A stretch of 29,375 nt of DNA from positions 1-29,375 of the IMG/VR virus record IMGVR_UViG_3300030419_004218; one strand, 5' to 3'. This DNA is from a virus. Below the pieces are notes generated by a model. The model had not been told where the DNA came from and ran no database searches. It worked only from the letters and a program-made list of their open reading frames with translations. The stretch's first letter is position 1, and each line of letters begins with the position of its first letter. Shown piece after piece: positions 8,012 through 22,289 of this stretch. The translations under genes were made by a program, and so were the position numbers.

Positions 8012-8263
8012 ATGAAACTAACAAAAGCAAAACTAAAAGAATTAATTAAAGAGGAAATTGCTTCTACCATCGAAGCAGAAAGAGTCGTCAATTTTATCAA
8101 AGACCACCCACCCGTACACGCAGAACTTGTGTATCAAGATGATGGTTCTATAAAAATTAAAGTTGTCTCAAGGGTATATAACGTCAACACCCGCAAATCG
8201 AGCCAAGAAGTCAAATACATTGAACCCACTATGCGCGCAGCAAGAAGGTATCTGGAATATTAA
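8012..8263 (+). CDS. Small protein with the recurring MKLTK...LIKEE N-terminal leader (copy 3)
   Basis: 83 residues. Residues 1-16 (MKLTKAKLKELIKEEI) match the other leader copies with conservative I-to-L changes. The body (VNFIKDHPPVHAELVYQDD, then GSIKIKVVSRVYNV) looks like a small alpha/beta fold unrelated to the other three bodies. Both L8-K9-E10 and I12-K13-E14 fit the gp21 cleavage rule. It begins just after the terminator, and its stop is one base before the protease ATG, so it is made together with the enzyme proposed to cut it. No ACTATTTA element is seen upstream. Confidence 0.75.
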   Translation: MKLTKAKLKELIKEEIASTIEAERVVNFIKDHPPVHAELVYQDDGSIKIKVVSRVYNVNTRKSSQEVKYIEPTMRAARRYLEY

Positions 8264-8264
8264 A

Positions 8265-8870
8265 ATGAAACTACTACGAGAATACTACGAACTATGTGAA
8301 GGCGGCGTATGCCAAGACCTTCTCACCGAAGACGAAAAGCGTTTCGTTTCCAATGGTGGGATGATGTTGTCAGGCAAACTCCAAGAAGCCGACGTCCAAA
8401 ACGGAAATGGTCGTGTCTACCCTTATAAGGTTTTGATGAGAGAAGTCCAAAACTACAAAAAACTTGTAAAAGAAAACAGAGCGCTTGGCGAACTAGATCA
8501 TCCAGATGATTCCGTAATCAACTTGAAGAACGCTTCACATATGGTCACGGACATTTGGATGGAAGACAAATCTGTTATGGGCAAAGTCAAGGTTCTCAAC
8601 ACCCCATCAGGGCAGGTTCTAAAGTCTCTTGTAGAATCAGGTGTCAAACTTGGCATCTCTTCTCGCGGCATGGGCTCTGTGTCCGAAGCCGCTGGAAATG
8701 TTGTTGTCCAAGAAGACTTCCAGCTTATTTGCTTTGACTTTGTGTCAGAGCCTTCAACCCCAAATGCTTTTATGATGCGAGAAGCAAAAGAGTTCAAGAA
8801 CCAAGTGTTCACAAAAGCTGACCGCATCAACAGATTATTAAATGAGGTCTTAAAGGATGAAGATCACTGA
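8265..8870 (+). CDS. gp21: Prohead core protease (T4 gp21-like)
   Basis: 201 residues from ATG 8265. An in-frame ATG at 8163 lies inside the preceding gene and is rejected, since the preceding gene continues to 8263. It is a serine protease that matures the prohead by cutting scaffold, capsid and internal proteins after (L/I)-x-E. The family pattern is visible: GKLQEADVQNGNGRVYP (37-53), ALGELDHP with catalytic His79, DIWMEDKSVMGKVKVL, and GISSRGMGSV with the Ser132/133 nucleophile, then FDFVSEPSTPNAF (about 157-169) with a candidate acidic residue Asp158. Length is close to T4 gp21. Its 3' end overlaps the next motif protein by 14 bases. Confidence 0.93.
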   Translation: MKLLREYYELCEGGVCQDLLTEDEKRFVSNGGMMLSGKLQEADVQNGNGRVYPYKVLMREVQNYKKLVKENRALGELDHPDDSVINLKNASHMVTDIWMEDKSVMGKVKVLNTPSGQVLKSLVESGVKLGISSRGMGSVSEAAGNVVVQEDFQLICFDFVSEPSTPNAFMMREAKEFKNQVFTKADRINRLLNEVLKDEDH

Positions 8871-9504
8871 ATCTCGTTTAAAAGAGATAATAAAAGAAGA
8901 AGTTGATCTTGCCCTTAATGAAAAAAGTTATGCCGGCAAAGTTATTGATTTTTTAAAATCTTTGGCTCCTCCTGGCGAAGACTTAGAGATTTCAAAAACA
9001 AAAAAACCTGAAGACTCTGCTTCACCAATCGATTATGGACGCGAGATTTCTTACGCACCATCCCCAATATCACCGGAAGATTTGGTGATCAAAGAGCCAC
9101 CAGAAGACTCTTCATCACCCGCCCCTCCCTCGCCAGCCTACAATATATCTGACAAATTTAACCTTCGTTTTGCAAATACGCTTTATGATTCTTGGAAATC
9201 TAAGCGTGCAAATAAATCAAAAGATCGAGATATTTTTATTAATGATTTAAGCCTGTTTATAAATTTTGTTGCTCCATATTTACCATCTTATTATGTCAAG
9301 GAAGGATTTAAAATAGAAAAAATGTTTGATAGAGGCGAGTTTGTTGCTAGAAAACATGAGATAGAAAAAGCTTGGAAAAACGTTTCCCCCGAAGACCAAC
9401 GAGCAATTAACAGAATCTATACAGCCACCCAGGCAACCCAAGGACGCAAAAATAATATTTTGCTTCATATATTAAAAAACATAACAAAACGGGAAGATAA
9501 ATGA
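8857..9504 (+). CDS. Protein with the recurring MKITE...IIKEE leader, Pro-rich linker and helical domain (copy 4)
   Basis: 215 residues in three parts: leader MKITESRLKEIIKEEV (1-16) shared with the proteins at 123, 2333 and 8012; a Pro/Ser/Glu-rich linker (about 48-95, including SSSPAPPSPAYN); and a helical basic C-terminal domain (about 96-215, with RFANTLYDSWKSKRANKSKD and a long helical end). L8-K9-E10 and I12-K13-E14 both fit gp21 cleavage. It starts inside the protease gene and overlaps the next gene by four bases. It is the largest leader-bearing protein and the best candidate for an internal head protein or packaged effector. Function of the C-terminal domain is unknown. The coding sequence is visibly AT-richer than its neighbours, possibly a sign of separate origin. 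Confidence 0.78.
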   Translation: MKITESRLKEIIKEEVDLALNEKSYAGKVIDFLKSLAPPGEDLEISKTKKPEDSASPIDYGREISYAPSPISPEDLVIKEPPEDSSSPAPPSPAYNISDKFNLRFANTLYDSWKSKRANKSKDRDIFINDLSLFINFVAPYLPSYYVKEGFKIEKMFDRGEFVARKHEIEKAWKNVSPEDQRAINRIYTATQATQGRKNNILLHILKNITKREDK

Positions 9505-10190: not shown

Positions 10191-10198
10191 ACTATTTA
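10191..10198 (+). promoter_or_regulatory. Candidate late promoter element ACTATTTA (copy 2)
   Basis: Exact octamer two bases after the bS21 stop, starting 38 bases before the ATG at 10229. It opens the fibre/surface-protein cluster. Confidence 0.5.
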
Positions 10199-10228
10199 TT
10201 ACGAAGAAGACAAATACGGAGGTTTCTT

Positions 10229-10645
10229 ATGGCTGAGTTTAAAAAATCTTGGAGAGCCGAAGTAGGCTTAAATCATGTGCCTGCATATCAGGTTAGTGGA
10301 AGACCATTTGCTAGTGGCTCAATCGATGCTTCGGTATCTGGTGGACATAAGGTAGAATTTCCATATATTACTAGATGGATCTATGTTGCTAACCACGGAT
10401 CCACAGCTTGTAGAGTAGGCTACTCACAGAATGGAGTTTTAGGCTCCAACTATCTTAGGGTTGCTCAGACCGACAACGACGCCAACTCGGCCCCTGCAAC
10501 TATTAGATTGGAAGTTAAGGTTTCAGAACTTTGGCTATCTGGTTCTGATAGTGTTGATGTGATGGCTGGTCTTACTACTGTTCCCATATCAAGAGTTAGT
10601 GGCTCAACTGGTCCAAGTTGGTCGGGCTCATCTGGAGTAGGCTAA
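10229..10645 (+). CDS. Small virion-type protein, unknown function
   Basis: 138 residues, soluble and beta-rich: SWRAEVGLNHVPAYQVSGRP near the N-terminus, FPYITRWIYVANHG in the middle, VKVSELWLSGSDSVDVMAGL later, and a Ser/Gly-rich end (SGSTGPSWSGSSGVG). The composition (Gly, Ser, Val, few Lys) matches exported or virion surface proteins. I recall similar proteins next to capsid genes in marine T4-like phages but no assigned role. It has a strong GGAGG Shine-Dalgarno, sits first behind ACTATTTA and is followed after three bases by a fibre-like gene, so a decoration or fibre-base role is possible. Confidence 0.7.
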   Translation: MAEFKKSWRAEVGLNHVPAYQVSGRPFASGSIDASVSGGHKVEFPYITRWIYVANHGSTACRVGYSQNGVLGSNYLRVAQTDNDANSAPATIRLEVKVSELWLSGSDSVDVMAGLTTVPISRVSGSTGPSWSGSSGVG

Positions 10646-10648
10646 CCG

Positions 10649-11293
10649 ATGGCTCAGTTTCGTTGGGCATATGTAAGTTGTCCTGATGATCCAGTTACTA
10701 TCGCTGGACCAACAGGTTCTTTGCAATTTCTAACCGGACCTGCTGCTTTAAGCGGCTCTTCAAATTTAATTTTTAATTCTTCCAGCAACACATTATATGT
10801 TACTGGAACCCTTTTAGTTTCTGGTACCATTAGTGCTAGTAGTTTTGTCGTAAATCAGACCGATACTGTTTCTGGATCTACCATATTTGGAAATAGTAAT
10901 GATGACACTCACCAAATTACTGGTAGCTTTTTTGTTGGCAAAGTATCAGAAGCACCAACATTTCAAGTTGTTCCAGATTTAAGCCAATCAATAACATATG
11001 GAATGAGACATACCTATAGAAGCATAACAACTTCTGGACAAACCTCTTCCACAGGTGATTATATTATTGGTTTTGGAGGTAGCGGTACACTACAATTTAG
11101 ATTACATTCAGCATCTGTTCACAATTCTGGAGCCATATTGGTTCTTAAAGATGAGTTATCAAGTCGCACTGGTCAGATTGTAATTTCTGCTTCAACTGGC
11201 GAAACAATAGATAACAATGGTGCCTATGGTCTAACTGGTTCTGCTCCCGCTATTTCTCTTTATTCAAATGGTGCTAACTGGTTCGTGTTCTAA
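10649..11293 (+). CDS. Short fibre-like protein with the shared C-terminal domain
   Basis: 214 residues, rich in Ser, Thr, Gly and Asn with short beta-strand repeats typical of trimeric phage fibres (SGSSNLIFNSSSNTLYVTG, LLVSGTISASSF). The segment SGSTIFGNSNDDTHQITGS is nearly repeated in the next gene (SGSTIFGDTNNDTHHFTGS). The last 60 residues (AILVLKDELSSRTGQIVIS, then TGETIDNNGAYG, ending SNGANWFVF) match the C-terminal domain of the proteins at 11309, 12637 and 15089. It is the smallest member of this set, with almost no shaft, and could be a short fibre or a chaperone-like cap. No Cys-rich or enzymatic motif. Confidence 0.75.
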   Translation: MAQFRWAYVSCPDDPVTIAGPTGSLQFLTGPAALSGSSNLIFNSSSNTLYVTGTLLVSGTISASSFVVNQTDTVSGSTIFGNSNDDTHQITGSFFVGKVSEAPTFQVVPDLSQSITYGMRHTYRSITTSGQTSSTGDYIIGFGGSGTLQFRLHSASVHNSGAILVLKDELSSRTGQIVISASTGETIDNNGAYGLTGSAPAISLYSNGANWFVF

Positions 11294-11308
11294 TAGGGAG
11301 GTTATTGA

Positions 11309-12544
11309 ATGGCTTATAACCTTCTCTCTGGAACAATTGTAGCAAACGAACAAGTTGTTTTCAAGCCTTCTGAAAATGGGGGCGCACACTCTAACGCCAT
11401 TGTTGGTGAGTTTCATGGTGATGGAACTTATCTCACAAATGTCTCACGAGTTGTCTCAAACGCCACCCCCGACTATGTGCTTACAGTTGGGGCAAATGCA
11501 GATAGCTTGGTTGGAGAACCAAACTTACAATTTAACGGATCCCGTCTCTATATTAATGGAAATATAGAGGCCACCGCCCTAAAGCTATCTTCGCTTTCTG
11601 CCGGACAAGCCACCACCTCTTCGTTTCTTGCTCTTGACGACAATAATAATGTTGTACTTACTTCATCAGCAGGTGGTCCAGACTATGCGATAGCCCAGGG
11701 ACCAATAAACTCTCTACAATTTCATTCAAGTCCTGGCGATATAAGTGGTTCTGAAAACATTACATTTTCAAGCAATACTTTAAATATTAACGGGGCGTTG
11801 GATGTCACCACAGGAGCCACAATAGGTGGGTCAATCTCGCTTTCTAGCAGCACAGGAATAACAATAACCGGCTCACTTGTGCCATCTGGCTCCACCGTAT
11901 TCAGTTTAGGCACTGCCGACAATCGTTGGAATGAACTTTATGTTGGCACGGGTTCGGTACACCTAGGTCCCGATTGTACACTAAGTTCAACCTCGGATGG
12001 GGTTCTGTTTAATAAAACCCTACATGTCTCAGGAAACCTTGTTGTGTCTGGAAATGTAGAGGCTCACGGTTTTGATATTGTCCAGACAAACCTTATTGAA
12101 ATAAACCAATCTGGTTCTACAATATTTGGGGATACAAATAACGACACCCACCACTTTACTGGATCTGTTTCTGTGTTCTCTTCCAGTACAGATCTGTTTG
12201 CCGTAGATGCCGAGAACAAAACAACAAAAATAAATACTGGTTTGACTCTCAATAGAGTCGCCGTAACATCAAACTATTCTGTGCTAAAATCAGACTACTA
12301 TATTGGCATAAATACATCTACTCCAAGCGCCATAATCACTGCAAGTTTACCAAACGCAAACACCCTCAACAGCGGTCAGACCTTTGTTTTCAAGGATGAG
12401 GGCGGCGCCTCAAATACTTACAATATCGTAATTGTGGCAGATTCGGGTCAAACAATCGACAATCAAAATAAAGTAATTTTAGAGTCTCCTTATGCTTCTT
12501 TAATGGTTTATACGGACGGGGCGTCCAAGTTCTTCATTACTTGA
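11309..12544 (+). CDS. Fibre-like protein with the shared C-terminal domain
   Basis: 411 residues. It begins MAYNLLSGTIVANEQVVF, close to the start of the 15089 product (MAYNVLKGSVQFINSD), so the two also share an N-terminal attachment segment. FHGDGTYLTNVS is the GDGxxLxNv motif common in phage fibre shafts. Middle repeats such as SGNLVVSGNVEAHGF, SGSTIFGDTNNDTHHFTGS and YIGINTSTPSA follow. The C-terminus (SGQTFVFKDEGGASN, then IVADSGQTIDNQ, SPYASLMVYTDGASKFFIT) is the shared domain. GGGAGG Shine-Dalgarno sequence upstream. Likely trimeric; whether it sits on tail or head cannot be told from sequence. Confidence 0.8.
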   Translation: MAYNLLSGTIVANEQVVFKPSENGGAHSNAIVGEFHGDGTYLTNVSRVVSNATPDYVLTVGANADSLVGEPNLQFNGSRLYINGNIEATALKLSSLSAGQATTSSFLALDDNNNVVLTSSAGGPDYAIAQGPINSLQFHSSPGDISGSENITFSSNTLNINGALDVTTGATIGGSISLSSSTGITITGSLVPSGSTVFSLGTADNRWNELYVGTGSVHLGPDCTLSSTSDGVLFNKTLHVSGNLVVSGNVEAHGFDIVQTNLIEINQSGSTIFGDTNNDTHHFTGSVSVFSSSTDLFAVDAENKTTKINTGLTLNRVAVTSNYSVLKSDYYIGINTSTPSAIITASLPNANTLNSGQTFVFKDEGGASNTYNIVIVADSGQTIDNQNKVILESPYASLMVYTDGASKFFIT

Positions 12545-12567
12545 TTTCTATATGTAAAATAGGGCAC

Positions 12568-12575
12568 TAAATAGT
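12568..12575 (-). promoter_or_regulatory. ACTATTTA octamer on the minus strand
   Basis: TAAATAGT on the + strand is the exact reverse complement of the candidate promoter element. It is the only intergenic copy in reverse orientation. On the + strand the overlapping CTAAATAG is partly similar to the T4 late TATAAATA box, so it might instead serve the 12637 gene. Function unresolved. Confidence 0.25.
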
Positions 12576-12580
12576 AGTAG

Positions 12581-12608
12581 AATGAGGGGTACTTTTGTGT
12601 CCCTCATT
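12581..12608 (+). terminator. Terminator-like hairpin after the 11309 fibre gene
   Basis: Perfect stem AATGAGGG 12581-12588 with CCCTCATT 12601-12608, 12-base T/G-rich loop, followed by GTCATTTT, a weak T-run. Probably a terminator or attenuator before the 783-residue repeat protein. Confidence 0.55.
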
Positions 12609-12636
12609 GTCATTTTCCATAGGAGGATTTTTATAA

Positions 12637-14988
12637 ATGGCTTACAAATTTCAGGTTGGACCCGCTACCCTTAGTGGCTCCACAAAATTCGAGGAAGAAC
12701 TTGAGGCTGCTGGTGGCTTCAAGCCCTCTGGTGTTTCTGACACCGCTCTAGATGTTGCTGCTGATAGTTTCTTTTTCCGTGACGCAGACGGTACTATGAA
12801 GCGCGATACAATGGCTGATTACGCTACTGCTATTGCTGGTGATGGTCTCGCTGCCTCTTCCGGTGTTCTCGCTGTCGGCGTTGATGATTCAACTGTCGAA
12901 CTAAACTCCGATGCTCTTCGCATCAAGGATGCTGGTGTTACTGGTGCTAAACTAAACACCGATGTTATCTCCGCTCAAACTGAGTTGGCTTCTGATGGCC
13001 TCGCTGCCGCTGACGAAATGATGATCAGTGATGGTGGTGTTCTAAAGAAGATTGGCGTTGACAATCTTTTCAAAGATGGTCCTGGTCTTCTAAGCGCTGC
13101 TGCTGTTGCAGTTGCAGACGACCACTTCATGTTCCTTGATGGTGGTGCTACTGGTGATACTAAGGTTGAATCAGTCGCCGACCTCATGACCGCTGTTGCT
13201 GGTAACGGTCTAGCTGCTGCTTCCGGTGTCCTATCTCTTGATAGCTCCGAAGTTGCTGACGCTGCTGTCGCTTCTGGTGACAAGTTCGTCTTCCACGATG
13301 CTACTGACGATAGCACCAAGAAAGAGTCTATCGATGATATCGCAACTCTTTTCGCAGGTGACGGTCTCACCGCTTCTTCTGCTGTTCTTGCTGTTGGCGC
13401 TGGTGCCCTCATCGATGTGCAGGCAAACCAGATCGATGTTGACCTAACCGAAGCCACCGAAGCCGCTATCGCTTCTGGTGACTATCTACTTTTCCTTGAC
13501 GGTGGTGCTACTGGTACTCACGCCAAAGAAAACATTGACGATATCGCCACCCTCTTCGCAGGTAGCGGTCTAGCTGCTGCTTCCGCTGTCCTTTCAGTCC
13601 AGGTCTCTGGTGCTGTTAAGGTTGCTTCCGACAAGGTCGGTATCTCTGGTTCTATCGCTGGTATTGGTCTTTCCTACGATGGTGCAGTTGACGCCATCGA
13701 TAGTATTGACCTTGACCTCAACGAACTAAGCGCTGGCGCTATCGCTCATGGCGACTCCATCGCTTTCATTGATGCCAACGACTCAAACGTAACCAAGAAA
13801 GAAGCTGTTGCTGACCTTGCTACCCTCTTCGCAGGTGACGGTCTTTCCGCTGCTTCTTCAGTTATGGCCCTCGACCTCAACGAACTAACCGCTGCTGCTG
13901 TTGACGTTGCTAACGATAGCTTTGCTATCATTGATGCTAACGACTCCAATGGCTCCCGCAAGGAAAGCATTGCTGACCTCGTGACTGCTGTTGCTGGCAA
14001 CGGTCTTGCTGCCGCTTCGGGCGTTCTTTCACTAGATGCTTCCGAAGTTGCTGGTGCAACCCTTGCTTCTGGTGACCATCTCGTGTTCCACGATGTCACT
14101 GACGATAGCACCAAGAAAGAAACAATCGACGATATTGCAACTTTCATGGCTGGTAACGGTCTTGCTGCTTCCTCTGGTGTTCTTGCACTAGATGCTTCCG
14201 AAGTTGCCGCCGCTGCTGTTGCTTCTGGCGACGCATTCGTGTTTGAAGATGCAACCGATAACAGCACCAAGAAAGAAACAATTGATGACATTGCTACCTT
14301 CATGGCTGGCGACGGTCTCATTGCTTCCTCTGGTGTTCTTGCTGTTAACGTTGCTGACATGGCAACTGCAATGACTGGTGATGTTGCTGATACCGATGAG
14401 TTCGCTATCTCCGACGCCGGCACCATGAAGAAGGTTGACTTCAGCGTTGTTCGCGATGCTGTCTTCGCTGATGTTTCAGGTGACGCTACTGTCGCTGCTG
14501 GTGGTGCTCTCACCATTGCTGCTACCGCTGTTGAAAGTGGAATGCTCAACAACAACGTCATCTCTGGTCAGACTGACATCGGTGGTGCTTTGGCTACCAC
14601 TGACGAAATTCTCGTCAGCGATGGTGGTACTCTCAGAAGAACCGACCTCTCCAGATTCGCTACCATGATGGCTGGTGATCAGCTTACCGCTGCTAGCGGT
14701 CAGCTTCACTTCCGCTTGGAAATCACCGAAATTGGCGATGGCGATACTCTTACTCAGGGTGTCCACTACCTTGGTGACCTTACCTCAAACGCTACCCTAA
14801 CCCTACCAGCTTCTCCTGATGTTGGTGATCAGGTTACCGTTAAGGCCAAGGGTCTCACTGGTGCTGTTGTCATCATCAACAAGGCTGGCTCACAGACTAT
14901 CGATGGCGAAACTTCCGTTACCATCGAATCACCTTATGGTGCTGTTAGCATGGTCTACGTTGCTAACAACGATTGGAGACTCATCTAA
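12637..14988 (+). CDS. Large repeat-built fibre protein with shared C-terminal domain
   Basis: 783 residues. The body is nine imperfect copies of a unit of variable length ending in AG(D/N/S)xL-x-A-(A/S)-S-x-(V/Q)-(L/M), most preceded by a segment of the type SGDxxxFxDATDDSTKKExIDDIAT. The last copy lies near residue 690. The C-terminus (about 710-783: TLPASPDVGDQVTVKAKG, SQTIDGETSVTIESPYGA) is the same domain as in the other fibre-like proteins. Codons are strongly biased to GCT, GGT, GTT and CTC, like the capsid gene and unlike the 15089 fibre, which suggests very high expression. The start has a near-perfect AGGAGG. The unit has its own terminator. A high-copy fibre, perhaps on the head, fits better than a six-copy tail fibre, but this is inference. 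Confidence 0.82.
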   Translation: MAYKFQVGPATLSGSTKFEEELEAAGGFKPSGVSDTALDVAADSFFFRDADGTMKRDTMADYATAIAGDGLAASSGVLAVGVDDSTVELNSDALRIKDAGVTGAKLNTDVISAQTELASDGLAAADEMMISDGGVLKKIGVDNLFKDGPGLLSAAAVAVADDHFMFLDGGATGDTKVESVADLMTAVAGNGLAAASGVLSLDSSEVADAAVASGDKFVFHDATDDSTKKESIDDIATLFAGDGLTASSAVLAVGAGALIDVQANQIDVDLTEATEAAIASGDYLLFLDGGATGTHAKENIDDIATLFAGSGLAAASAVLSVQVSGAVKVASDKVGISGSIAGIGLSYDGAVDAIDSIDLDLNELSAGAIAHGDSIAFIDANDSNVTKKEAVADLATLFAGDGLSAASSVMALDLNELTAAAVDVANDSFAIIDANDSNGSRKESIADLVTAVAGNGLAAASGVLSLDASEVAGATLASGDHLVFHDVTDDSTKKETIDDIATFMAGNGLAASSGVLALDASEVAAAAVASGDAFVFEDATDNSTKKETIDDIATFMAGDGLIASSGVLAVNVADMATAMTGDVADTDEFAISDAGTMKKVDFSVVRDAVFADVSGDATVAAGGALTIAATAVESGMLNNNVISGQTDIGGALATTDEILVSDGGTLRRTDLSRFATMMAGDQLTAASGQLHFRLEITEIGDGDTLTQGVHYLGDLTSNATLTLPASPDVGDQVTVKAKGLTGAVVIINKAGSQTIDGETSVTIESPYGAVSMVYVANNDWRLI
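12800..14740 (+). repeat. Nine-unit coding repeat in the large fibre gene
   Basis: Imperfect repeats of variable length, recognisable at protein level by AGDGLxASSGVL-type ends (nine copies) and at DNA level by near-identical stretches, for example GACGATAGCACCAAGAAAGA near 13306 and again at 14101. They arose by internal duplication and are a likely site of length variation between strains. Confidence 0.85.
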
Positions 14989-15021
14989 TATAACCTTCTG
15001 GTTTTAATCAGATTTCTCTTT

Positions 15022-15056
15022 GGGTGCCCTCCTATATGGGGGGCATCCTTTTTTTT
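15022..15056 (+). terminator. Strong rho-independent terminator after the repeat fibre gene
   Basis: 11-bp stem 15022-15032 with 15038-15048 (two G-U pairs), loop TATAT, followed by eight T (15049-15056). ACTATTTA begins six bases later. Confidence 0.92.
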
Positions 15057-15061
15057 ATTAA

Positions 15062-15069
15062 ACTATTTA
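15062..15069 (+). promoter_or_regulatory. Candidate late promoter element ACTATTTA (copy 3)
   Basis: Exact octamer between the terminator T-run and the ATG at 15089 (27 bases from element start to ATG). Part of a terminator-promoter couple. Confidence 0.55.
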
Positions 15070-15088
15070 TTGTTGTTCGGAGACAAAA

Positions 15089-17374
15089 ATGGCTTATAAT
15101 GTCCTAAAGGGCAGCGTTCAGTTTATTAATTCAGATAGTGGCTCCATTGAAAGCATGGTTGATGACTATAGCGATCAGACGATTGCTGGAGTAAAAACTT
15201 TTTCTGGGCTCTTGACGGCATCTGTTGGGCTATCTTCAAGTGCTTATTATGGAGATGGCACTGGTTTATCTAACCTGACAGCCTCAAAAGTAATTATCGC
15301 AAATGATGGAGATAATCGTGTTTTAACCTCAACAGGTGCGTCTGCTCTAAACGCAGAGCAAAACATGCAGTTCAATGGCTCTACGCTTTCAATTATAGGT
15401 GATATCTCTGCCTCAATTAATGTTTCAGGAACCGCTTTCTATGGCGCCGCCATAGGATTAACAAATGTTCCAGCGGCTGCTCTGGATGGTAATGTATCCG
15501 CAGCAAATATTGCTTTCGATACAAACTCTTTAAACAATAATTCTGGTAATCTTGAGGTAAATCTTTCCAGTTCTAGTGGACTTGAGAGTACATCAACAGG
15601 GATAAGAATAAATACTTCATTGGCGACCAACAAGTCTTCTCCTGCTAATAATGATAAGTTTATTATCGCTGATTCAGCAGATAGCAATAAACCAAAACAT
15701 ATGCTATATTCAGCGATCTCAACAGCAGTAGCCAGCAGCATCACAACATATCCCCCAGGCGGCAGTGATACAGAGATTCAATTTAAAAATGGAAGCGCCT
15801 TTAATGGAGATAGTAACCTAACGTTTAATGGAACCACGGATACCCTCACAACCGTAAATATAACGGCATCTGGCGACTTAGGTGTCGGTGCGAAGGTTTT
15901 TCACGTTGGCGACGAAGACACATACATCGACTTTACAACTGACGATATAAACTTTCAAGCCGGTGGCGTCAATTTCCTTGATCTTACCGAGGATACTCAA
16001 AACGAAGTAACTTTTAATGAAGGTGGTGTGGATATCGACTTTAGAGTTGAGACCGCCGACGAATCCCACATGCTCTTTATTGAGGGCTCTTCTAATAGGA
16101 TGAGCATCGGCGACAACACAGGATCCCCCGGCGCCACACTAGAAATTAAAAATCATGCTACTGCCGGCGCTCACGGCGTACCCCTTCTTCAGCTAAACAA
16201 TAACGACACCGACCAGCAGTGCGTTGATATTAATGCTAACAATATTGATGCGAATGTGGTCAATATAACAGCAAACGATGTAACAACAGCAAGAGTGCTT
16301 GCTATTGGTGCAGACGGACTAACAACTGGTAATGCGCTTTATGTTGATGATAATTCACCAAACACAGGAACAAGAAATACTGCGCTCATAATTCAGAATC
16401 ATACTGGGGCAATTAACGCCAAAGCGCTCGCAATTCAGTCAGACGGCGGCAAAACAGGAGTAAAGATAGACAAGAATTACTCCGATCTCACTGAAGCCTC
16501 AATAGTCGGCTTAGATATAGACTGGGATAAAACTGGCGCTTCCACCTCAGACAATACCATGTACGGTATCCAGCTTGATATGGATAACACCACAGCCACC
16601 AATGGCACCAACTATATGTATGGTTTGCACGTCACGCCGACGCTTACGCACGCTGCCAATGCCGGATCTAGCTTTGTATATGGCGCACTTATCAACGCAC
16701 AAGGCGGAACAAATGGTACCGCCTTCGTTCAAGGTGTAAGGATCGAAGCGGGCGGCGGCGATATTAACTACGGAATCCAGCTTGATGTTGAGGACGGTGG
16801 CGTGGATCTTAGAATTGAAAGTTCAGCCGATAACGGCGATTATTTCCAGATTCAAACCACCACCCACGGCGCAACCACATTCACAACGGTTGATGATAAT
16901 GCCACTGCTGCTCATCTTACATGCAGTATTGATGGAAACATTGTTCTAGATCCCGCTGGTGGTGTTGTTTCCGTTGATGGCAATCTTTCGGCTTCGATAA
17001 ATATTTCAGCATCTGCTTTCTATGGTGATGGAAGTAACTTACAAGGAGTGGGTGGCGGCTCAAATGCTTTTGATGCCTTTGAGGCAAACTTTAATGTTAC
17101 AGCAGATCATGATTTTATAGCGGTCGTTACAACTGGCTCAGCAATAACCGCTTCGCTTCCGACTGCTGGCACTTTTGACCCCGGAAAGAGATTTACTTTC
17201 AAAGATGTTAGTGGAAGTTGTTCTGGCTCCAACCATATTGTCATTAGTGCAAGCCAAAATCATAATGGTCAAAATATTGATGGACAAGGAGTTGTAAAGA
17301 TTCAAGCTGCTTACGGAGCTATTACGATAGCTACTGATGGCGCTACTCAATATTATATAGTGAGTGTGAACTGA
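15089..17374 (+). CDS. Long fibre protein with shared C-terminal domain
   Basis: 761 residues, Ser/Thr/Asn/Gly/Asp-rich beta repeats. The N-terminus (MAYNVLKGSVQFINSD) resembles the 11309 product. GDGxxL motifs occur at YYGDGTGLSNLTAS (about residue 55) and FYGDGSNLQGVG near the end, with a variant FYGAAIGLTNVP between. The central shaft (about 380-560) alternates short strands such as GNALYVDDNSP and GVKIDKNYSDLTEAS. The C-terminal domain (about 690-761: GKRFTFKDVSGSCSG, HNGQNIDGQGVVKIQAAYGA) is shared with three other proteins. Codon use is mixed and AT-richer than in the 12637 gene, implying lower expression. The stop TGA overlaps the next ATG by one base, so the next product is probably a partner. 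Confidence 0.83.
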   Translation: MAYNVLKGSVQFINSDSGSIESMVDDYSDQTIAGVKTFSGLLTASVGLSSSAYYGDGTGLSNLTASKVIIANDGDNRVLTSTGASALNAEQNMQFNGSTLSIIGDISASINVSGTAFYGAAIGLTNVPAAALDGNVSAANIAFDTNSLNNNSGNLEVNLSSSSGLESTSTGIRINTSLATNKSSPANNDKFIIADSADSNKPKHMLYSAISTAVASSITTYPPGGSDTEIQFKNGSAFNGDSNLTFNGTTDTLTTVNITASGDLGVGAKVFHVGDEDTYIDFTTDDINFQAGGVNFLDLTEDTQNEVTFNEGGVDIDFRVETADESHMLFIEGSSNRMSIGDNTGSPGATLEIKNHATAGAHGVPLLQLNNNDTDQQCVDINANNIDANVVNITANDVTTARVLAIGADGLTTGNALYVDDNSPNTGTRNTALIIQNHTGAINAKALAIQSDGGKTGVKIDKNYSDLTEASIVGLDIDWDKTGASTSDNTMYGIQLDMDNTTATNGTNYMYGLHVTPTLTHAANAGSSFVYGALINAQGGTNGTAFVQGVRIEAGGGDINYGIQLDVEDGGVDLRIESSADNGDYFQIQTTTHGATTFTTVDDNATAAHLTCSIDGNIVLDPAGGVVSVDGNLSASINISASAFYGDGSNLQGVGGGSNAFDAFEANFNVTADHDFIAVVTTGSAITASLPTAGTFDPGKRFTFKDVSGSCSGSNHIVISASQNHNGQNIDGQGVVKIQAAYGAITIATDGATQYYIVSVN

Positions 17375-18129
17375 TGGCAGGCTTGGTGCTGAGAAATGGA
17401 GTTTGGGTGGTAGAACCAGATGCAAATTTGGCCAACCTTGAACTAACGACTGTGGATATAACCGACGGCAGTTGGACCCTTGTTGATATTAATAGTGGTA
17501 TAAAAACCCAAGCTTTTGAAGACAATGCTGTCAAGATTACAACAAATGCTATTAGTGCGGGAACAATAAATATATTTGCAAATGCTGCCTACAATGGTCC
17601 AAGATGGTACAAAAAACTAACCGATGCAGATGGGGACCAACTTACTCAAAATGATGATTTTATTTTTATTGTTGTACAGCAACCGATGTCTTCATCAAAT
17701 CCGGCACCCCTGGGCTTCGGATGTGGCTATTCCTTAGATCCACTAGCAACTGGCTCAAACGCTCAAAACAATCAGGCTTGGAACGGATCGGCTGTCTATA
17801 ACGATGGTAGCAATACCAGTACAGGCAATGATAATGATTTTACTAATGCGCTTTTTTCTAATGGTGCAAGCGTCGGTGGCTCCAATCTAAATCATGATAG
17901 CATTGTAAGAGCAATTATAAGCTATAATAACAAAAGAGGCAACATGACTCATACAATTTCCAATAAAACAAATGTTACAGACAGGGCAGTAATAACATTT
18001 ACAGGGAGTGTAGACCTATATGTACAAGTCGGCTTGGGTGGTAGATATAATAATGTGTCGGCGCTAGAAGACGCCGAGCAAAAACAAAAGATCCAATATG
18101 GAGTTATAAAGTTGAGTATGGAACAATGA
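17374..18129 (+). CDS. Fibre-associated protein, possible tip adhesin
   Basis: 251 residues, beta-rich with no membrane segment. The N-terminus MAGLVLRNGVWVVEPDANL is followed by a jelly-roll-like run (NIFANAAYNGPRWYKKLTDA, FIFIVVQQPM), a Gly/Asn/Ser-rich middle (about 125-180) and a C-terminal strand region. Coupled by a one-base TGATG overlap to the long fibre gene, which is how fibre-tip adhesins or fibre chaperones are often arranged. No known lectin motif can be proved by eye. If it is an adhesin, it would be the host-range determinant of this cluster. Confidence 0.65.
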   Translation: MAGLVLRNGVWVVEPDANLANLELTTVDITDGSWTLVDINSGIKTQAFEDNAVKITTNAISAGTINIFANAAYNGPRWYKKLTDADGDQLTQNDDFIFIVVQQPMSSSNPAPLGFGCGYSLDPLATGSNAQNNQAWNGSAVYNDGSNTSTGNDNDFTNALFSNGASVGGSNLNHDSIVRAIISYNNKRGNMTHTISNKTNVTDRAVITFTGSVDLYVQVGLGGRYNNVSALEDAEQKQKIQYGVIKLSMEQ

Positions 18130-18361: not shown

Positions 18362-18369
18362 ACTATTTA
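18362..18369 (+). promoter_or_regulatory. Candidate late promoter element ACTATTTA (copy 4)
   Basis: Exact octamer starting 41 bases before the scaffold ATG, six bases after the hairpin at 18331-18356. Probably drives scaffold and major capsid genes, since no element lies between them. Confidence 0.55.
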
Positions 18370-18402
18370 AAATGAAAAACTATTTTATGGGAGTTTTTAT
18401 TC

Positions 18403-19596
18403 ATGTCTTCACTATTGGAACAGGCTATTGTTGACGCAAAAGCCTTGAAAGAGGCTGCGCTCAAGAACGCAGAAGCAACTATTATCGATAAGTATTCAGC
18501 AGAGGTTAAATCAACCTTAAACCAACTACTAGAACAAGATGAACTTGGTGGTCTAGAAGATATGTTGGGCGGCGCTGAAGAGGCTCCTGCTGCTGCCGAA
18601 GGAACTATGGAAGAGGAAGTTGCCTCTGATGAGATCGCAGAAGGTGTCCCCGATGCCTTTACCGAGGATGTCGCTGAACTTGATGGTGTTACTGAAGGCG
18701 ACGAAGCCACAGTCACAGTAGATTTCGCAGAACTCGCAGAAGCCCTCAAGTCTCTCCGTGAAGAAGTTGAGGGTGAAGATACCCTTGAAGAGGCCGGATG
18801 CCCTGGTGATCTTGATGATGAAGAGCCAACTCCAGTTGTAGAAGAAAAAGAAATAGAACTTGATGAAGAGGCTATTATGGAGATGGTTGCCAACATTCTT
18901 TCTGAAGATGAGGCTACTCTCGCTGATGATACAGAGGCTGGCGAGGCTGCTGCTATGGAAGCCGACGCCGACCAGATGGAAAAGGCTGGTCTTGAAGAAG
19001 CAGAGGAGTCAGAAGAGGTTGTAGAAGAGATCGAGATCTCCGACTCTCTCCTTGATGCTATTATGGAAAAACTTACTGTAGATATGGGTGCCTCCCTCTC
19101 TGGTTGGGCTGGTCGTTCCTCCGAGGACACCAAACACCAGATGGAGCTTGAGTTGGCAAAACGCCGCAGCACCGATATGGAAGAAGAACTAGATGCGCTC
19201 AAGCAAGCGCAAGAAGAACTAGTCTTCGAGAACAAGAAACTAAAAGAAACTTTGGCCAATTACAAGTCTGTAGTTGGTTCACTTAAGGAAAACGTGCAGG
19301 ATGTAAATCTTAGTAATGCACGTCTACTTTACACTAACCGAGTGCTTGGAAATACCTCCTTGAATGAGCGACAAAAACAAAGAATTGTCGAAGCGATTTC
19401 TAAAGCTGGTTCGGTTGAGGAAGCTAAGACAATACACGAGACACTTCAAAGTGCAGTGCAGGCTGGTCCAAAAGCCAGTCCAAAATCGCTGAACGAAGCT
19501 ATCACCCGTCCAAGCTCCATTATCCGTGCTTCTCGCAAAGAAGAGCCCAAAGTGGATCCCTTCACAGCGAGAATGCGTAAACTAGCAGGAATATAA
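18403..19596 (+). CDS. gp22: Prohead scaffolding core protein (T4 gp22-like)
   Basis: 397 residues, longer than T4 gp22. It forms the core on which the capsid assembles and is then degraded by the gp21-type protease. The N-terminal helix (MSSLLEQAIVDAKALKEAAL) is followed by a very acidic Glu/Asp/Ala-rich region (about 45-220), then a coiled coil (about 245-300, MELELAKRRSTDMEEELDAL onward), and a conserved-looking C-terminal end (NLSNARLLYTNRVLGNTSLN; basic tail ARMRKLAGI). Many L/I-x-E sites suit proteolytic removal. It lies immediately before the capsid gene, as gene 22 does in T4. The opposite strand carries a long open frame caused only by this acidic composition. Confidence 0.88.
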   Translation: MSSLLEQAIVDAKALKEAALKNAEATIIDKYSAEVKSTLNQLLEQDELGGLEDMLGGAEEAPAAAEGTMEEEVASDEIAEGVPDAFTEDVAELDGVTEGDEATVTVDFAELAEALKSLREEVEGEDTLEEAGCPGDLDDEEPTPVVEEKEIELDEEAIMEMVANILSEDEATLADDTEAGEAAAMEADADQMEKAGLEEAEESEEVVEEIEISDSLLDAIMEKLTVDMGASLSGWAGRSSEDTKHQMELELAKRRSTDMEEELDALKQAQEELVFENKKLKETLANYKSVVGSLKENVQDVNLSNARLLYTNRVLGNTSLNERQKQRIVEAISKAGSVEEAKTIHETLQSAVQAGPKASPKSLNEAITRPSSIIRASRKEEPKVDPFTARMRKLAGI

Positions 19597-19621
19597 ATCA
19601 AATTTTAAGGAGGATTTAAAA

Positions 19622-21484
19622 ATGTCTAGTATCGTACAGAGACTCACCGAAGGTGTAGTCAACCGTGATATGCGTGCAGAGTCCCACGCCCTTCTCAGCA
19701 AGTGGAAGAAAACAGGTCTCCTAGAGGGTCTAGAGACAGAGCGTCAGCAGAACACTATGTCTCGCCTACTCGAAAACCAGGCCAAGGAGCTACTCCGCGA
19801 GAGCACCTCAATGGCTGCTGGTGATGTGGAAGGCTTCGCAGCCGTCGCATTCCCAATCGTCCGCCGCGTGTTCGCTGGTCTAATCGCCAACGATCTCGTC
19901 AGCGTTCAGCCAATGAGCCTACCAAGTGGTCTCATCTTCTTCCTAGATTTCACCTTCTCTGGTGAGCTAGGTACTGGCTCCCAATCAAGCCGCATGGGTA
20001 ACATTGCCAACAAGTCTGTTTACGGCACCGATAAGGTTGCTTCTGAACTCACTGGCGGTGTAAACATAGTTGATACCTTTGGTGGAGACTTCTCTGGTCC
20101 TCGTCAATCTGCTCGCGGTTATGCTTATGCAAGCCCAACTGGCTCCAGCGTAGCTACCGCTAACCAGGCAGATGCAGCCGTCTCATCCTTGTTTAAGCTA
20201 GATGGCTCTGTTTCTGAGACCAGAAAGAAGCTAATTGATTTCGATCCTGATCTTCTTTCCGCAACCACAACAGGTATGATTGTTCTTGATATTGCTGAAG
20301 ATCACCTAACCGATATTGATTTCGACAATCTCTCAGCAGTGTCTCTAGAGGACATTATCAATGCCACCACAAGCGGTAACGATCTGCTTACTGCTCTTAA
20401 CGCCACAACTGGTATCGGTACCCTAACTGGTATTGATGCCTGTCAGATGGTGCGTCGCCTTACTCGTAGAGTTTCTAGCGACACTCGTGGTGCCCCATAC
20501 CAGTCCGGTATTACCTCACAGGCAGCAGCCGTTCGTCTCTTCATCGCAACAGACGAGCCCGCACAGCTTACTGAAAGTGATACTGCTGTGGCCCTTGGTG
20601 CTGCTCTTGATGCTGGAAAGATCAAGTTCCCTCTCAAGGACCAGATCGATGCTGCCGCTACAGTTGGTGCAGTTATTGGTGCCACTCCTTGGGGTCTCGA
20701 AGGTAACGCCGAAATCCCAGAGATCGACATCAAGGTGGATTCAATCGCAGTGACCGCTCAGACCAAGAAGCTCAAGGCCAAGTGGACCCCAGAGCTTGGT
20801 CAGGATCTCAACGCATACCACAACTTGGATGCTGAGGTCGAGCTTACCAGTCTTCTCTCCGAGCAGATTGCTCTTGAGATTGACCGTGAGATCCTAGCTG
20901 ACCTCGTGAACGGTGCTACCGCAGCTACCCGCTACTGGTCTCGTGCTCCAGGTCTATTCGTGGACTCAACCGGTACTCCTCTTGGTGCAGCAACTGCTGC
21001 TCCTGACTTCACCGGTACTGTCTCCGAGTGGTATGAGACTCTAGTTGAGACCATCAACGATGTGTCCGCTGCTATCCATCGCAAGACTCTACGTGGTGGT
21101 GCTAACTTCCTCGTCTGCGGACCTGAAGTTGCCAACATCCTTGAGTTCACCGCTGGCTTCCGTGCAAGCGTCACTCACGACGATGAGAAGGGTACCGTTG
21201 GCGCCCTCAAGGTTGGTTCACTAAGCAAGAAGTTTGATGTCATTGTTGACCCATACTTCCTCCGCAACGTGGTCCTAGTCGGTCGCCGTGGCTCTAGCTT
21301 CCTAGAGTCTGGTTATGTGTACGCACCTTATGTGCCACTACAGACCACTCCCACCATCTTCGGACCCGAAGACTTCGTGCCTCGCAAGGGCGTGATGACT
21401 CGCTATGCCAAGAAGATGGTTCGTCCAGACATGTACGGTCTAGTTATCGTGCGCGGTCTACTTGGTGAGGAATACACTACCTGA
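19622..21484 (+). CDS. gp23: Major capsid protein (T4 gp23-like)
   Basis: 620 residues, somewhat longer than T4 gp23. It forms the hexamers of the head shell. The N-terminal about 60 residues are a charged helical propeptide. LLRE at 57-60 fits the gp21 rule, so the mature protein probably starts at Ser61 (STSMAAGDVEGFAAVAFPIV). Family-typical blocks are KWTPELGQDLNAYHNLDAEV (about 386), the Glu-rich helix LSEQIALEIDREIL, RGGANFLVCGPEVANIL (about 495) and the C-terminal VDPYFLRNVVLVG with APYVPLQTTP. Perfect AAGGAGG at 19607-19613. Strong codon bias (GGT, CGT, CTC/CTA, ACC) fits the most abundant virion protein. It is co-transcribed with the scaffold and followed by a strong terminator. Confidence 0.95.
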   Translation: MSSIVQRLTEGVVNRDMRAESHALLSKWKKTGLLEGLETERQQNTMSRLLENQAKELLRESTSMAAGDVEGFAAVAFPIVRRVFAGLIANDLVSVQPMSLPSGLIFFLDFTFSGELGTGSQSSRMGNIANKSVYGTDKVASELTGGVNIVDTFGGDFSGPRQSARGYAYASPTGSSVATANQADAAVSSLFKLDGSVSETRKKLIDFDPDLLSATTTGMIVLDIAEDHLTDIDFDNLSAVSLEDIINATTSGNDLLTALNATTGIGTLTGIDACQMVRRLTRRVSSDTRGAPYQSGITSQAAAVRLFIATDEPAQLTESDTAVALGAALDAGKIKFPLKDQIDAAATVGAVIGATPWGLEGNAEIPEIDIKVDSIAVTAQTKKLKAKWTPELGQDLNAYHNLDAEVELTSLLSEQIALEIDREILADLVNGATAATRYWSRAPGLFVDSTGTPLGAATAAPDFTGTVSEWYETLVETINDVSAAIHRKTLRGGANFLVCGPEVANILEFTAGFRASVTHDDEKGTVGALKVGSLSKKFDVIVDPYFLRNVVLVGRRGSSFLESGYVYAPYVPLQTTPTIFGPEDFVPRKGVMTRYAKKMVRPDMYGLVIVRGLLGEEYTT

Positions 21485-21506
21485 TAGATAGGTATTCAAA
21501 CCTTAA

Positions 21507-21537
21507 GCCCCCTACTTCGGTAGGGGGTTTTTGTTTT
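21507..21537 (+). terminator. Strong rho-independent terminator after the major capsid gene
   Basis: Stem CCCCCTAC 21508-21515 with GTAGGGGG 21520-21527, a TTCG tetraloop, then T-rich tail to 21537. ACTATTTA begins seven bases after it. Confidence 0.95.
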
Positions 21538-21543
21538 GAGGGC

Positions 21544-21551
21544 ACTATTTA
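21544..21551 (+). promoter_or_regulatory. Candidate late promoter element ACTATTTA (copy 5)
   Basis: Exact octamer after the capsid terminator. It is unusually far (137 bases) from the next ATG at 21681, leaving a long leader. Confidence 0.5.
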
Positions 21552-21570
21552 AAGTAACTTGAAATATTCT

Positions 21571-21658
21571 CCTCTGGGCGAGGCCACTGCCCATAGAAAG
21601 GCTCATTGTCGAGGTGGCTGGTAATGAATCATTGAATAGGACAAGTTATTGCAATAAC
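21571..21658 (+). promoter_or_regulatory. Possible structured 5' leader before the capsid-surface gene
   Basis: The leader between the promoter-like element and the AAAAGGAG Shine-Dalgarno holds TGGGC 21575-21579 pairing with GCCCA 21589-21593. GCCAC 21583-21587 inside that loop can pair with GTGGC 21614-21618, a pseudoknot-like geometry. A 14-base perfect palindrome GTTATTGCAATAAC lies at 21645-21658. Not a known riboswitch as far as I can tell. Confidence 0.3.
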
Positions 21659-21680: not shown

Positions 21681-22289
21681 ATGGGAAGTAGAAGAGTAGC
21701 CCGTAGAAGGCTATATGACTTAAATAAATCAGGTGAATCGCTAACCTCCACCGCTGGTGCTGGTATGGGGAGTAACATTGGCTCTCAATCAAGATTTCGT
21801 CAAGGTGAGCTAATCACCACAGACATCACAATTGACTTGGCTGCCGCCGCTGGTGCCACCCACTCTTTCTCTACCACCGGTACAGGAACAACTGCTGTTA
21901 AGGCAATCGGTGTTAGTTCATCAGGTGGTACGCACAGTAACGCACATATTATGCAGGTTAATGGTACCTCAAGCGCCAACGACGCAGTTGGTATTGTGGT
22001 TGCTGCTGAGCTAATCTGTGTTGAGGCACCCCTTGGTGGTGAAGATCACATTGGTGTGTGGTATGCCACAAATGCTAGTGGTTCCGGTAACGATATGCTT
22101 GGTGGTGGTGTGGCATTGATTGCTGCTGCCGACCAAGCACTAGGTACAGATGGTGAGAATCTAGATGTTGGTACTGATTTGGATGATAAATATCTTTATC
22201 TAGTTAGTTCTGGCTCAACAGACGCTGACTATACCGCAGGTAAGTTCGTTCTTAGGCTTTATGGTTACAACGTCTTTGATGACGTATGA
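21681..22289 (+). CDS. Probable capsid-surface (decoration-type) virion protein
   Basis: 202 residues. A basic N-terminus (MGSRRVARRRLYDLNKSGES) precedes a Gly/Ala/Thr/Ser-rich beta domain (IGSQSRFRQGELITTDITID; then AEYLICV-like strands AAELICVEAPLGGEDHIGVW) and ends DYTAGKFVLRLYGYNVFDD. The basic tail followed by a small beta domain, the place right after the capsid gene and the own promoter-like element with strong codon bias suggest an abundant head-surface protein in the functional place of T4 Soc/Hoc. There is no sequence match to Soc or Hoc that I can see. I recall similar proteins downstream of capsid genes in marine phages. Confidence 0.7.
   Translation: MGSRRVARRRLYDLNKSGESLTSTAGAGMGSNIGSQSRFRQGELITTDITIDLAAAAGATHSFSTTGTGTTAVKAIGVSSSGGTHSNAHIMQVNGTSSANDAVGIVVAAELICVEAPLGGEDHIGVWYATNASGSGNDMLGGGVALIAAADQALGTDGENLDVGTDLDDKYLYLVSSGSTDADYTAGKFVLRLYGYNVFDDV

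Follow-up and report, generated by a model that had tools for sequence, protein, structure and literature searches.

The locus described here raises the question of whether four neighbouring fibre-like genes of one phage end in the same protein domain, and what such a domain could do at the tip of four different proteins. The window analysed is the virus record IMGVR_UViG_3300030419_004218 in full (29,375 bases). Pfam and PHROG matches identify T4-type terminase, portal, prohead protease, major capsid protein (MCP), sheath and tube genes in it. These T4-type genes (gp17, gp20, gp21, gp23, gp18 and gp19) are divergent in sequence, as is characteristic of the Far-T4 phages, and the nearest cultured terminases are those of Microcystis phage Mel-JY01 and Flavobacterium phage immuto (Immutovirus), with 43–45% identity. 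Judged by its gene families and terminase matches, the phage is a marine T4 relative of the Far-T4 kind. It resembles the known Far-T4 phages (Roux 2015, PMC4360716; Immutovirus, Mel-JY01) in the order of its head genes and in its T4-like portal, protease, MCP and sheath. Bacteroidetes have been linked in silico to marine Far-T4 genomes (PMC7198788). A search of genome contigs with a single protein did not find relatives.

A C-terminal domain common to four fibre-like proteins

All four predicted ORFs were confirmed at their coordinates on the plus strand, and we refer to them by gene position as slots B (gene at 10649), C (11309), D (12637) and E (15089). Slot B (10649–11293) encodes a fibre of 214 aa with the N-terminal tag MAQFRWAYVSC..AGPTGSLQF, slot C (11309–12544) one of 411 aa with a tag of the MAYNLLSGTV type, slot D (12637–14988) one of 783 aa with the tag MAYKFQxGxAxLSG and slot E (15089–17374) one of 761 aa with the tag MAYNVLKGxV. 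The C-terminal domains, on the same strand, were placed by alignment and profiles at 11048–11290 in slot B and 17114–17371 in slot E; those of slots C and D, for which AlphaFold models were obtained, are found at 12296–12541 and 14743–14985.

Gene A (10229–10645, plus strand, 138 aa) is the first gene of the cassette and lacks the C-terminal domain. It is a candidate for a small virion protein with a decoration or anchor function. We found 75 homologous ORFs in the loci, mostly immediately 5' of slot B. The motif VGSYQVSGxPF, of the gene A type, is also present at the N-terminus of a >1000-aa ORF at the corresponding site of locus L187. At the other end is gene F (17374–18129, plus strand, 251 aa), which overlaps the slot E stop codon. 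Gene F has no family match and, among the fetched loci, is confined to a few close relatives. A different N-terminal tag is repeated elsewhere in the window: the ORFs at 123–365, 2333–2599, 8012–8263 and 8857–9504 begin with the near-identical sequence MKITKAKLKxIIKEEI, their proteins being otherwise different, and the related contig G001 has ORFs with similar starts.

The C-terminal 80-mers of the four proteins were aligned in pairs and compared with 1000 shuffles. Five of the six pairs scored far above shuffled sequence, namely C-E (score 140, z 21.7), B-C (95, z 12.8), C-D (67, z 7.7), B-E (63, z 6.5) and D-E (54, z 4.9). The score of the remaining pair, B-D, is weak taken alone (36, z 2.1). 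This doubt was removed by slot-only profiles, made one per gene position from the sequences of other phages, since the B and D profiles match at an E-value of 7e-8. The other profile-profile comparisons, in which the window's E-type represents slot E, gave E-values of 2e-20 (B-C), 7e-17 (C-D), 4e-16 (C-E), 6e-8 (D-E) and 2e-7 (B-E). Control profiles built from the C-termini of neighbouring genes or from the fibres' own shafts reached less than 2% probability against the slot profiles. The original prediction of a shared domain, which had been staked on alignment scores against shuffled sequence, was therefore borne out directly for five pairs and through the profiles for B-D. On this sequence evidence, it is confirmed that the products of 10649, 11309, 12637 and 15089 share one homologous C-terminal domain of ~80 residues.

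The residues by which the domain had first been recognized hold in part. SPY-x-A and GQTID describe slots C and D best, while slot B reads GETID...TGSAPAIS and slot E GQNID...QAAYGAI; one L, one K and an I-D pair are invariant in the window's four copies. The shafts had been called unrelated, which is correct for slot D versus the others. However, slots B and C share ~79 shaft residues (z 12.5), and slots C and E are similar in their N-terminal/shaft portion (z 6.3).

Fold of the domain and its solved relatives

AlphaFold modelled the slot C domain with a mean pLDDT of 96.8 (119-sequence input) and the slot D domain with a pLDDT of 96–98 over its length, and the order of strands matches. These two divergent copies, run as monomers, are thus predicted to form the same eight-strand sandwich (pLDDT ~97), and sequence profiles place slots B and E in the same family. 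Both results agree with the proposal of one domain on different shafts.

Foldseek queries with the monomer models of slots C and D returned the same PDB neighbours: the gp34-like long tail fibre of phage KP1, TSP4, T4 gp10, T4 gp9 and the Pa223 capsid spike. The XD1 beta-sandwich was matched with a probability of 1.00, a TM-score (query) of up to 0.79 and E-values down to 1.3e-5. StcE and CpaA were weaker matches of both models, and 350 predicted viral proteins matched at E ≤ 1e-3. The relationship is also detectable by sequence, as an hmmsearch with the domain profile found 9f4a (gp34-type fibre) at E 1.8e-7 and TSP4 at 7e-4, with gp10 reaching only 0.11. Among the 119 members of the family, 51–52 matched the tail-fibre and baseplate families phrog_972/phrog_20556, and 30 matched PF07880 with E-values of 0.1 or less, the lowest being 2.5e-6. 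The slot C member of the window scored 18.4 bits with PF07880, for which the curated cut-off is 25. A phmmer search of slot C versus PDB had no match, so that a profile was needed, and neither slot C nor the domain consensus had a tblastn match among annotated phages at E 1e-3. The slot C protein of a relative gave weak tblastn matches in annotated phages, several of them to baseplate gp10-type genes. The models and profiles indicate that the domain is an XD1-type beta-sandwich as in T4 gp9/gp10/gp34, CBA120 TSP4 and the Pa223 capsid spike, a fold that was already known.

The XD1 domain has been described as a nine-stranded sandwich that is trimeric in TSP4 and gp9 and is regarded as a spacer (PMC8825819). 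T4 gp9/gp10 and CBA120 TSP4 (PF07880 region; 1qex, 5iv5, 7rej) have the same sandwich in a fibre or baseplate context, and their profile match to the window's domain is weak but significant. In these proteins XD1 is internal and followed by other domains, whereas in the window it is terminal in four tandem paralogues within a head-gene block. The internal position is a habit of the solved members, not a strict definition, and the window's family does not share it. The best match by both sequence profile and fold, with the two E-values of 1.8e-7 and 1.3e-5 given above, is the T4-type gp34 variant of Klebsiella phage KP1; such domains are found there inside a protein of >1200 residues, in contrast to the single C-terminal copy per protein in the window. 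The capsid spike of Pseudomonas phage Pa223 (9ny6), which was matched in fold by the C and D domains at E 5e-4 and 4e-5, demonstrates that an XD1-type fold occurs in a head-borne spike. However, Pa223 is another type of phage with a single spike protein, in which sequence similarity to our profile was not detected.

One function suggested originally for the domain was that of a foldon. In the strict fibritin sense, both fold and size are wrong: the fibritin foldon is a ~27-residue beta-propeller-like trimer cap, while the window's domain has ~80 residues, eight strands and matches to another fold.

Recurrence of the cassette and possible place of the fibres on the virion

A profile search of other marine phage fibres had been proposed together with the original prediction. 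Across 2.2 Mb of related loci, it found 318 ORFs with the domain in 123 loci, one domain apiece. In 292 of the 312 ORFs that have a stop codon, the domain ends at most 5 residues before it. All domain ORFs are on the plus strand, a count that says little because the loci were oriented by the match, and the neighbouring structural genes run in the same direction. In Far-T4-like phages the domain recurs as a cassette of 3–5 genes between prohead protease and scaffold, in the order protease, A, B, C, D, E, scaffold and MCP, with an additional fifth gene X between E and scaffold in some loci. Many of the loci had been retrieved via the domain; as a control, we considered the loci retrieved by terminase alone that extend at least 3 kb beyond the protease (n=17). 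The domain was present in 16 of these 17 loci; near-duplicates such as L143/L146 and L193/L195 bring the effective number below 17. Only L187 lacked it. There, the cassette site is occupied by an A-like gene and by a fibre-like ORF of >1000 residues, which continues past the end of the retrieved DNA. The products of both (L187:18177–18545 and 18548–21571) have the N-terminal motif NVGSYQVSGxP in common, which suggests that this motif is an anchor tag itself.

We could also observe the domain in other settings. A second kind of locus (L057, L062–L080) contains a single domain gene shortly 3' of the sheath and tube genes, so the domain is not limited to the cassette. The 203-kb relative G001 carries a domain gene with a tail-fibre-like shaft outside the cassette (L245:8447–9778); in its baseplate region (68–104 kb), the XD1 domain was not found. 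Unlike the window, the records of Mel-JY01, immuto and LR756508 have no detectable domain, and the interval from protease to MCP contains no such cassette in Mel-JY01 or immuto. Fibres go unmentioned in the Far-T4 paper (PMC4360716). In the literature searched, we found no description of a Far-T4-like head block with four slot-specific fibre genes in tandem, each ending in XD1; this negative result is weak evidence.

We propose that the four proteins are probably separately anchored, homotrimeric fibres or spikes on the virion of a marine Far-T4-like myovirus, each with XD1 as its terminal knob. The observations behind this proposal are the homology, the fold of C and D, the C-terminal position, synteny, the slot lineages and the shaft indels. 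The short slot-specific N-terminal tag would anchor each subunit at its own site on the virion, and the repetitive shaft that follows would be free to change in length. At the distal end, the XD1 sandwich may close the trimer and keep it in register, and it would offer the outermost surface, a possible contact surface at the tip. The homotrimer is suggested by the trimeric state of gp9, gp10 and TSP4, the relatives with solved structures (PMC8825819), and by this homology the earlier idea of a trimer module gains support. As XD1 is an internal spacer in those proteins (PMC8825819), its function as a terminal domain is an extrapolation.

Since the genes are located among head genes, the head or neck is slightly favoured over the baseplate as the site of these fibres. 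It is quite possible, if a little short of an even chance, that they are capsid or neck fibres which, like those of head-fibre phages, attach weakly and reversibly to cells, flagella or particles. The cassettes sit in a head-gene neighbourhood, the fold is matched in the Pa223 capsid spike, and the head fibres of phage 7-7-1 have been proposed to consist of a shaft and a C-terminal knob (PMC12796354). However, gene position is indirect evidence, no capsid-binding motif was identified, and the domain carrier of G001 outside the cassette, with its tail-fibre-like shaft, weakens the assignment to the head. A more specific arrangement, in which 4–5 different fibres of the capsid or neck, with a fixed anchor and an XD1 knob lineage specific to each, would display several adhesive tips and leave final receptor binding to the tail, appears unlikely to us.

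The same G001 gene, away from the cassette, would fit tail or baseplate adsorption fibres that are encoded in the head block and use their XD1 knobs as receptor-binding tips, possibly for surface glycans. This is conceivable, though clearly short of an even chance. The nearest profile families are tail-fibre and baseplate families, StcE and CpaA bind glycans with XD1-like domains of the same fold (PMC8825819), and XD1 is missing from the G001 baseplate region, so that other fibres of this fold are scarce. Yet every cassette seen has the protease–scaffold position, and the tips of slots C, D and E do not behave like fast-changing receptor tips. In slot D, the tip exceeds the shaft in conservation in 95% of pairs; the proportion is 89% in slot C, 74% in slot E and 63% in slot B. 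These percentages are descriptions and not tests, because the pairs are not independent. The slot B tip is barely better conserved than its shaft. For slots C, D and E, conservation at the sequence level usually differs from the classic pattern of a hypervariable tip.

Slot lineages, shaft changes and possible transcription units

A tree of 95 domains, built from few alignment columns and with long branches, joins the domains of slots B and D into one strongly supported group each. The five slot labels need 4 changes on this tree, which is the least possible, and the N-terminal tag is distinct for each slot. The heterotypic assembly considered at the outset finds no support here, as the slots keep separate domain lineages. 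The window's E-type domain groups with X, apart from the other slot E domains (support 97/90). We do not claim a domain swap in this sole candidate case, because a single slot-E clade is not rejected by the AU test (p 0.40). It is very improbable that the domain is exchanged among the four genes as a mobile cassette that generates phase or host-range variation; this grouping and the movement of shaft segments would be in line with it, but the lineages follow the slots.

Shaft segments do move. Slot E of the window contains an in-frame shaft insert of ~375 aa (15875–16999, plus strand) without counterpart in the relatives L110 and L006. Its flanks are nearly identical to those of L110 in protein and 88–91% identical in DNA. 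Many other, otherwise divergent Far-T4-like contigs have shaft segments that match the inserted block itself with ~80–86% DNA identity, and several of these contigs have scaffold and capsid genes directly after the matching segment. Each junction of the insert falls at a short S-A-S motif, and the mechanism may be recombination at motifs that are repeated in the shaft. We regard the insert as a movable shaft block. In slot D, the shaft consists of imperfect repeats of ~52 aa, with a 156-bp array at 13993–14342. Each slot retains its tag and tip lineage even though the shafts change.

A C-terminal position on shafts of varied length would also suit an intramolecular chaperone that is removed by cleavage once the trimer has formed, but this is the most improbable of the readings, as the fold matches structural and not autocleaving domains, Peptidase_S74 is absent from the Pfam matches of the four proteins, and neither it nor any other chaperone is among the families listed for the 119 members.

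The motif ACTATTTAW was found four times in the window versus 0.54 expected. It is located upstream of gene A (10191–10199), of slot E (15062–15070) and of the scaffold gene (18362–18370), in each case on the plus strand. The remaining copy, at 21544 (plus strand), is just upstream of the gene at 21681. Counted in distinct contexts in the related loci, 160 copies of the motif are on the gene strand and one is on the opposite strand, a count that is inflated because the loci are homologous. A ribosome-binding site plus ATG follows within 60 bases in 62% of cases, compared with 13% at random positions. In these phages, ACTATTTAW is likely the late promoter. As further sequence patterns, terminator-like stem-loops are found on the plus strand 3' of slot C (12581–12608), 3' of slot D (15022–15048, a strong one with a T-run) and 3' of the capsid gene (21505–21530). 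Taken with the putative promoter motif, these hairpins suggest that A-B-C, D, E-F and scaffold-capsid are transcribed separately.

What appears new in our findings is the arrangement, that is, a terminal XD1 on tandem slot-specific fibres in the head block, since the fold itself is known. Several hundred hitherto unannotated fibre genes of marine T4-like phages can now be assigned to a family with a known fold. The anchor tag and the tip lineage are fixed in each of the four slots, and the slots have remained together through the rebuilding of their shafts, which makes them a testable case of fibre modularity in which the ends are kept and the shafts swapped. The four-gene set is conserved in a large group of ocean phages, for which metagenomes are almost the sole source. 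Should the fibres prove to be head-borne, a multi-fibre head display would be added to what is known of this group.
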